Shown here: positions 13,119 through 14,918 of the stretch, piece by piece | How positions within the stretch are numbered: the first letter of the stretch is position 1 | Layout of the letters: every line of letters starts with the position of its first letter | Assembly (NCBI RefSeq): GCF_023715505.1 | Contig: NZ_JAMBOH010000005.1 | Location: 275,689-339,688 of the forward strand | Origin: Neobacillus cucumis | Lineage (GTDB): Bacteria > Bacillota > Bacilli > Bacillales_B > DSM-18226 | Reading direction: 5' to 3' | Length of the DNA: 64,000 bases | Notes under the pieces: model-generated | The model's database searches: none | Seen by the model: the letters and a program-made list of their open reading frames with translations, nothing else | What the model was told of the DNA's origin: nothing | Made by a program: the position numbers and the translations under genes

Positions 13119-13353
13119 ATGGATTTTGGCAATTTACAAATGAGGATTATAATGTTTTTTTATAGATGGATTAAAAGCACGAATGGAAGCTTTAAAAAGT
13201 ACTGTTTGACCGAAACTTGAACAATTGGGGGAATACTTTGCACCTTTATTATCTTCCCTGACAGAAGATGAAATGTTCGTCCATGTTGCCAAAAATGCTA
13301 GACGGACGATAAACCCTCCTAAGGATACATGGATTGTTCCCAAGTACGATTAA
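13119..13353 (+). pseudogene. yktB: 5' fragment of the native yktB gene (frameshifted, nonsense, truncated)
   Basis: Starting at an ATG with the SD ATGGAGG, the frame soon shifts. In another frame it reads DGLKARMEALKSTV, a TGA, then PKLEQLGEYFAPLLSSL, EDEMFVHVAKNARRT and PPKDTW before leaving homology and stopping. These blocks align one-to-one with residues 18-75 of the intact YktB at 13424 and are closer to B. subtilis YktB than that copy is (PKLEQLGAHFAP). It is therefore the ancestral gene, broken by a frameshift, a stop and loss of its middle. The 3' piece is at 14775. Confidence 0.88.
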
Positions 13354-13423
13354 TTAAAAGCCCGCTGTTTCTATCTTTTACCCCCATTATAAAAAGATTA
13401 AACTTTACGAAGGAGTACTAAAA

Positions 13424-14041
13424 ATGCAATTTCAAGGATTTTCGAAAACAGACTTCGACACCTTTAATATAGAAGGTCTTGACGCAAGAATGGAAGCCAT
13501 TGAAGAAAGGATTCGACCGAAGTTCCGTGAAATCGGTCAATTATTAACGGACGAACTTTCCGTTAATCTTGGACAGGAAATGTTTTTACATATAGCAAAA
13601 CATGCCCGTCGAACTGTAAATGCCCCGAAGGATACTTGGTTGGCAATAGCGGGGAACAAACGTGGATATAAACAACACCCGCACTTTCAAGTTGGATTAT
13701 TTGACGACCATGTTTTCATTTGGTTGGCGTTCATTTATGAATTACCGAACAAGGAGGAAATCGCAAAGACATTCTTGAAGAACTTGAAAACGATCAAAAC
13801 GAACATTCCAAACGACTTTGTTGTTTCCCAAGACCATATGAAAAAAGGCGCAACATCAATGAAGGATATTAACTTGAAAGAGACACTGGAACGTTTTCGG
13901 GACGTCAAGAAAGCGGAATTTCTTATTGGACGACATTTTGCAGCTAATGACCCAATTTTAACAGACGGGAGCGAATTTTTGGACGTTGTAAGAAGTACGT
14001 TCGAAACACTTATTCCTTTGTATAAATTAGCATATAAATAG
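13424..14041 (+). CDS. yktB: Second, intact YktB family protein (UPF0637/DUF1054)
   Basis: A 205-residue soluble protein with the full family layout: GLDARMEAIEERIRPKF, FLHIAKHARRTVNAPKDTW, NKRGYKQHPHFQVGL and a C-terminus ending PLYKLAYK. The SD GAAGGAG lies 6-7 nt before the ATG. It sits between two fragments of the native yktB. Its codon choice is richer in CGA, CGT, ACG and GAC than its neighbours, which suggests a foreign origin. YktB has a solved fold but no established activity. A strong terminator follows. Confidence 0.9.
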   Translation: MQFQGFSKTDFDTFNIEGLDARMEAIEERIRPKFREIGQLLTDELSVNLGQEMFLHIAKHARRTVNAPKDTWLAIAGNKRGYKQHPHFQVGLFDDHVFIWLAFIYELPNKEEIAKTFLKNLKTIKTNIPNDFVVSQDHMKKGATSMKDINLKETLERFRDVKKAEFLIGRHFAANDPILTDGSEFLDVVRSTFETLIPLYKLAYK

Positions 14042-14042
14042 A

Positions 14043-14090
14043 AAAAAGCGTCTTCCCCCGCTATGCACAAACGGGTTCGGACGCTTTTTC
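14043..14090 (+). terminator. Intrinsic terminator after the intact yktB
   Basis: Stem AAAAAGCGTC/GACGCTTTTT with a long loop that contains a secondary CCCG/CGGG pairing. Symmetric T/A runs make it usable in both directions. Confidence 0.8.
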
Positions 14091-14186
14091 GTTTGCCTTT
14101 TTATTTAACCACGTATTGAAATTTTTTATAGCTTCTTCGCTTGGCGTGTTACTTCGAACAACCACCGTTAGTACTTCCTGATGGAA
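14061..14186 (-). pseudogene. C-terminal fragment of an unrecognised small gene
   Basis: A 41-codon open frame without a start, containing VVVRSNTPSEEAIKNFNTWL and a Lys-rich tail. Composition and codon use look coding, but upstream there is an in-frame stop and no SD. It overlaps the yktB terminator at its 3' end. It may be part of the foreign insert; I do not recognise the family. Confidence 0.4.
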
Positions 14187-14296
14187 TTAACCGTTGCAAT
14201 AACGATCAAGGTTGTTGCCAAGATGTCAGTCTGAAAGCGATACGGGCTGATATGGAAGACTCTTCGAAAAGGTTGTACAAATAGACCCAAAACGCT

Positions 14297-14680
14297 CCAA
14301 AACATAAAAATGGGGGCGGTAAGGCGTTGATTGCACTTCAAATGGAAGCGTTTGAAAAAGCAAGTCAATGGCTTGAACGAATAAAGGAATTATTTATCGA
14401 TGAAATGATTGACCGAAAGGAATTCGAAAAAAGGAAAAAAGCCGAAGAACAAAAAATCAAAGCGGCGGAAAAAGAAGTTGAACGGTTATCCCAATCTAAT
14501 GAATTCATCGACGAAGTAAAGAAGAAAGAACGAGCGAAGCGTTGATCTGAAATTCATTAGAAGGAATTATTTAAAGGCAATCTTTCGATCCGTGAAAAGA
14601 ATGAAGGATTCAAGAAGTTGATTGAACGAATTGACTATAAGAGGAAAGGTGAAGCAACAATCGACGTGATATACAAATAA
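14297..14680 (+). pseudogene. C-terminal remnant of a large serine recombinase
   Basis: One frame gives a lysine/glutamate coiled coil (LERIKELFIDEMIDRKEFEK, then KAAEKEVERL) ending at 14545. The next frame, after a break, gives KGNLSIREKNEGFKKLIERI, DYKRKG and VIYK before TAA at 14680. This pair, a DG/EMI-type coiled coil followed by a short 'll..lI..I.y' end segment, is the usual C-terminus of large serine integrases. The catalytic and zinc-ribbon parts are gone, so it is inactive. It lies inside the disrupted yktB locus. Confidence 0.65.
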
Positions 14681-14774
14681 AAACGGAGTTGTCATTTTAA
14701 CACACAAAAACGCTTGGTTAGAAATAAAATTCTTTCTAAGCATTTTTCTTTTTATGATGATTGACTGTTATACC

Positions 14775-14918
14775 TTTAAAAAAGCTGTTCTATTATGTGG
14801 TTATACGTTAGAAAGAAATGAAGTAATTGAATTAGGTGCGGAGGGATTTATAACTCGAATGGATGATGTGTTTACTAAAGTTGCACCTCTTTATAAAATT
14901 GCTCAGAATATCAAATAA
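14775..14918 (+). pseudogene. yktB: 3' fragment of the native yktB gene
   Basis: A 47-codon open tail reading KKAVLLCGYTLERNEVI, LGAEGF and FTKVAPLYKIAQ before TAA. It aligns with the last 45 residues of the intact YktB (KKAEFLIGRHF, then LIPLYKLAYK). There is no start or SD. Together with the piece at 13119 it brackets the insert; the segment equivalent to residues 76-157 is missing from both pieces. Confidence 0.8.

Follow-up and report, generated by a model that had tools for sequence, protein, structure and literature searches.

Between yktC and yktA in the window (the whole stretch of 64,000 nucleotides analysed here), a native yktB gene in two pieces encloses a complete second yktB. How did one yktB come to stand inside the remains of another? 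The first-pass annotation had read the arrangement as an integrative element that arrived at yktB with a replacement allele and then decayed. In what follows, A and B denote two lineages of yktB, L002 is the locus of Bacillus sp. AFS073361, and L101 is that of Bacillus sp. ISL-18. The parts of the locus are these:

13119..13335, plus strand: 5' remnant of the native (lineage B) yktB, codons 1-73, with a broken frame; matches DUF1054 and is placed in lineage B by the tree
13324..13349, plus strand: attL remnant, made up of GATACATGG (the last native codons) and the element arm ATTGTTCCCAAGTACGA
13350..13423, plus strand: element-borne leader, with a ribosome-binding site AAGGAG at 13410-13415
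13424..14041, plus strand: complete, element-borne lineage-A yktB, 205 aa; assigned by DUF1054 match, tree and identities within the genus
14078..14095, plus strand: terminator-like hairpin 3' of the A copy; one found, 0.9 expected by chance
14084..14172, minus strand: remnant of a small element gene, 82% identical over 89 nt to L101rc 3948-4036
14145..14741, plus strand: 3' end of a large serine recombinase gene, in a broken frame, and a short run of DNA behind it; assigned by nucleotide alignment
14770..14918, plus strand: 3' remnant of the native (lineage B) yktB, about codon 165 to the stop; assigned by alignment and by lineage B in the tree

For the complete gene (13424-14041), the match to DUF1054 was full-length (positions 1-198; E 1.4e-83, 280 bits, cut-off 27). 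In a profile search the 5' remnant matched DUF1054 32-68 (E 2.1e-13), and the ORF 14754-14918 of the 3' remnant matched positions 158-198 at a score below the curated cut-off of 27 (E 0.0072, 16.8 bits). The two native pieces align to residues 14-73 and 165-210 of a native gene, L150, so that about 90 codons are missing; the first-pass annotation was right that the middle had been lost, and its figure of about 80 codons was too low. The 5' piece that it placed at 13119 is likewise present, and is also broken internally: from the ATG at 13119 the frame is lost within the first ~45 bases, and a TGA stands at 13207-13209. This piece terminates in Asn-Pro-Pro-Lys-Asp-Thr-Trp (..NPPKDTW), and alignment to relatives places the resumption of native-like DNA at about 14770. 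The serine-recombinase tail held up by a different route. Family searches of the ORF 14327-14545 gave no recombinase, a sub-threshold CcrC match (E 0.1) being the sole return, but nucleotides 14145-14741 align with L002 16228-16829 at 80.9% over 602 nt, and with the ISL-18 locus at 84.1% over 428 nt. In L002 this segment forms the 3' end of a gene with a product that matches both Resolvase (5.6e-18) and Recombinase (2.9e-13). DUF1054 matches and alignments thus confirm a native yktB in two pieces around a complete yktB and serine-recombinase debris. Att-like direct repeats, expected near 13340 and 14770, did not materialise: a repeat search of the window alone found none at both ends, attL being readable at 13324-13349 and attR gone. 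Elsewhere in the window, at 51100-52800 on the minus strand, an apparent glycerol kinase gene (named by eye) has its start, middle and end in three frames, changes that reflect either decay or sequencing errors.

A tree of 55 rows separated lineages A and B at 100/100. The complete window copy grouped with the copies of L001, L002, L003, L004 and G197 (100/99), and the native pieces of the window, the native gene of L002 and the 3' remnant of L006 fell among the B genes of the genus that holds ISL-18 and AFS073361, to which we infer that the window also belongs. Of 61 genomes of the genus to which the nearest relatives belong, 60 have yktB. Fifty-five of the 60 carry a B-like gene, 44-51% identical to the window copy, an assignment that rests on identity for all 55 and also on the B side of a quick tree for 17. 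Lineage A is found in the other five (L001, L002, L004, L006 and L007), at 78-93% identity to the window copy, and each of these A genes has a B remnant beside it, the one in L007 being weak (32% identity, with an internal stop). One might suppose that A is the old, vertically inherited yktB and that the B pieces are the intruder, as an A gene occupies the place between yktC and yktA in many other genera. The B-like genes of 55 of the 60 genomes speak against this, as do the outermost position of the B pieces, adjoining the conserved neighbours, and the leader of the A gene, which is common to the element; the tree and the genus counts led us to reject this reading as highly improbable. Two adjacent yktB sequences could also suggest a tandem duplication in which one copy decayed. 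The copies belong to different lineages, recombinase sequence lies between them, and relatives hold 8.7-16.3 kb at that place, so this reading, contradicted by the A/B tree, retains almost no likelihood.

Some genomes depart from one yktB per genome. In the genus of L005, four (G210, G214, G215 and G227) have two full-length YktB genes lying far apart, and the second one of G214 (L162) groups in lineage A with L042 in the tree. Four of 193 genomes of the family (G050, G089, G090 and G091) gave no DUF1054 match.

Two relatives hold larger versions of the insertion. In L002 both halves of the native yktB are open (9692-9913 and 18613-19041), and the att sites lie 8.7 kb apart. Read from the left, the element starts with a complete yktB (92% identity to the window copy), then encodes a 318-aa protein that no family recognised above cut-off and an HTH regulator; small genes come before the recombinase, and a small ORF and a DUF3231 protein follow it. 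One of the small genes matches a small terminase weakly (phrog_2538, 6.4e-6); in Pfam, a transposase-type HTH ranks first for it (4.2e-9). The integrase carries Resolvase and Recombinase domains and ends about 15 residues before the end of protein P0121, an apparently full-length relative 98% identical to it; P0005, from Cytobacillus, stands at 87%. In ISL-18, whose TypA is 98% identical to that of the window, the highest value of six loci compared, a 16.3 kb element occupies the same place between the yktB halves. Its recombinase is decayed, lacking both ends, and is 90% identical to that of L002; its other genes encode ThyX, a dNMP kinase, a phage-type sigma factor, a DHH protein and a DUF3231 protein. 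The DUF3231 gene is present in both larger elements (L002 17328-18359, L101 10047-11054) and is possibly spore-related cargo; PADLOC assigned no family to the four element proteins submitted to it.

Both elements are bounded by an attL and an attR with a shared core (GGATACATGGGTTGTTCGCAAAGTATG and TTTTGTGAACAAAGCATACATGGGTAGC, respectively, in ISL-18, with close versions in L002). The native gene is cut at the same Asp-Thr-Trp codons in AFS073361 and ISL-18, and the A gene lies just inside attL. In L002 the core is flanked by arms, TTTGTGAACAAA and TTTGTTCGCAAA, that match in inverted orientation at 11 of 12 positions, and inverted arms of this kind fit a serine-integrase attP. The endpoint of the native 5' remnant is identical in the window, L001, L002, L004, L005 and G228, with L004 lacking a few bases there; the element arm of the window is the same in L001, L002 and L004, and more diverged in L005 and G228. 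The leader 13350..13423 is similar across L001, L002, L003, L004, L005 and G197.

The window shares four collinear blocks with ISL-18: 12900-14090, 14084-14172, 14145-14571 (recombinase) and 14772-15000 (the native end and beyond). Given these blocks, which are collinear with L002 as well, the window appears to hold an element of this kind reduced by at least two large deletions. The proposals of the first-pass annotation fared well: the tree, with the intact copy in lineage A and the native pieces in B, agrees with an origin of the copy from outside; insertion, as against tandem duplication, is what relatives with an inserted element, serine recombinase and att sites display; and the tree and the larger elements support entry at yktB with a replacement allele, followed by decay. 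We consider it very probable that an element with a serine integrase, likely a prophage or a derivative of one, entered a lineage-B yktB, supplied a whole divergent A yktB and then decayed.

Our best guess for the element itself is a prophage or prophage derivative, a label based on the weak small-terminase match in L002 and on the nucleotide-metabolism and sigma genes of ISL-18. The same insertion could have been made by a non-phage element, whether a satellite, a small integrative element or a conjugative element, and the L002 element, at just 8.7 kb and with no structural gene besides that terminase match, is in keeping with this; head or tail genes were absent from the element proteins searched. 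Against it stand the ThyX, dNMP kinase, phage-type sigma factor and DHH protein in the 16.3 kb of ISL-18, as well as integrases 44% and 42% identical that sit in IMG/VR proviruses of 60 kb (L183) and 37 kb (L184), respectively, the former with portal-, large-terminase- and small-terminase-like ORFs near the integrase (named by eye). We regard the non-phage version as the less likely, with a fair amount still in its favour. YktB was absent from all five viral records tested, these two included, and two short-pattern searches of viral contigs found no stretch encoding a relative of the window YktB. Phage records with YktB numbered seven and plasmid records six, all below 60% identity and none of them the window element; the phage records (H1-H7, unannotated, from Listeria, Staphylococcus and Enterococcus) encode a YktB, possibly as host DNA in the assemblies. 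The integrase matched 333 phage records, all below 60% identity. In Peribacillus the best integrases were 34% (G228) and 36% (G200) identical, each more than 1 Mb from its own yktB. No proven-active element was found.

Scars of the same kind occur elsewhere. We scanned the flanks of 85 lineage-A genes (700 nt before and 1200 nt behind, as far as the sequence extended; E 0.05) and found a native remnant beside eight: the window, L001, L002, L004, L005, L006, L007 and L158 (G228). The remaining 77 had none at E 0.05 within the scanned flanks. L004 retains a 94-nt piece of the recombinase behind its A copy, and in the genus of L005 a remnant lies beside a full gene in two of 36 genomes (G005 and G228). 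Two genomes of the Heyndrickxia genus, L003 and G197, have a leader in common with the element (by eye). L003 is 90% identical to the window in YktB, 56% in YktC and 62% in YktA; the locus seems to retain a native yktB start, as judged by a match of 24 of 33 nt to the B gene start of G196, equalled by none of 2000 shuffles and with 20 as the best of 68 control loci. The corresponding match of G197 was 20 nt only, with one control equal and 35 of 2000 shuffles as good.

L006 appears to have gone further. Its first ~80 nt are nearest B by a small margin (0.86-0.89 vs 0.78-0.83) and later segments are clearly nearer A, in a comparison that left lineage-B medians unused and had some B rows out of register; the gene is probably a fusion of a B start and an A remainder, a single case. 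This apparent fusion implies that homologous exchange at yktB occurs, or occurred once. It lends something to the proposal that the A gene was chance cargo, placed at yktB by homologous recombination and not by target sparing, but A and B proteins only 44-51% identical, and a junction whose codons and att arm are shared by several genomes, make that proposal quite improbable.

Integrase-mediated entry, our preferred account, leaves the fate of the incoming gene to be considered. Across 36 pairs of nine copies, dN/dS was 0.057-0.143, values that are rough because several dS exceed 1. This purifying selection is what suggests that the A copy kept the function, as the first-pass annotation held; the solved YktB structure, 2a8e, is named a hypothetical protein. 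The stretch from attL to the A gene yielded no promoter-like site. An 11 of 12 promoter-like match lies inside the native remnant at 13126-13153, but in all no more sites turned up than in shuffles. Transcription of the A copy may start at the native promoter. In seven copies the 40-nt att-equivalent site shares an identity of 0.50-0.62 with two empty sites; native genes reach 0.93 and 0.88 against the same two (medians 0.75 and 0.72, n=57), and other lineage-A genes reach 0.78. A core-like motif persists in the copies, as GATACTTGG or GATACATGG in six of the seven and as GACACTTGG in L005; in the G228 copy the motif is unchanged, GATACATGG. Judged by sequence, these identities suggest that the altered att-like site of the A copy may be no target for the integrase, a form of site immunity.

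With two yktB lineages, a constant cut, attL and attR with larger elements in two relatives, scars elsewhere and a copy under selection, events would have run as follows. The element, most probably a temperate phage or derivative and equipped with a large serine integrase, would integrate at the Asp-Thr-Trp codons (about 71-73), its integrase presumably acting on a lineage-B yktB. It would carry, just inside attL and in the same orientation, a complete A yktB with its own ribosome-binding site, so that the insertion that cuts the native gene would also put a substitute about 95 bp behind the cut, readable from the native promoter. Deletions would then remove most element DNA; attR, the greater part of the integrase and the central portion of the native gene would be among the losses. 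The element yktB would persist as a foreign orthologue, presumably of equal function.

The swap of a core gene for a distant orthologue is usually visible only as its end result in a tree. At yktB its steps can be seen, from larger elements with att sites, through scars with one- or two-sided remnants, to one probable fusion. We tentatively raise a broader possibility, somewhat doubtful as it stands: yktB may be a hot spot of allele replacement, where a phage-borne divergent yktB, its att-equivalent site altered, spares the host and closes the site to the next such phage, and where repeated entry and decay spread lineage A through Bacillaceae. If true, the hot spot would offer foreign orthologues a permanent way of replacing a core gene.

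Some elements restore the end of their target gene and leave the host with a working gene after integration. The yktB element differs from these: the gene it supplies is complete and divergent and has a start of its own, and the missing part of yktB is not supplied in frame, the native frame stopping soon after the junction and a separate gene being provided. Streptococcal ICEs with serine integrases exchange 3' parts of rumA and disrupt mutT, hsdM and traG (PMC4701971). They resemble the yktB element in inserting within a protein-coding gene, and differ from it in that the portion of that report available to us describes no whole orthologue (PMC4701971). Among temperate Bacillus phages that interrupt a gene on integration, as happens at yktB, SPbeta interrupts spsM and phi3T interrupts kamA; phi3T carries a whole host-type gene, that of thymidylate synthase (thyP3), but thyP3 is not the gene it interrupts (PMC8270828). 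The L183 and L184 proviruses have the same kind of integrase as the yktB element, without YktB. In the literature searched, as far as it was accessible, we found no description of the yktB element, and one may still exist. Among target-sparing elements, a known kind, one that brings a whole orthologue whose att-like site has diverged, and that can be followed from large element to scar to probable fusion, is an unusual variant. The yktB element represents a whole-gene mode of target sparing, and its diverged att-like site raises the question of whether a restoring allele can also close the site.
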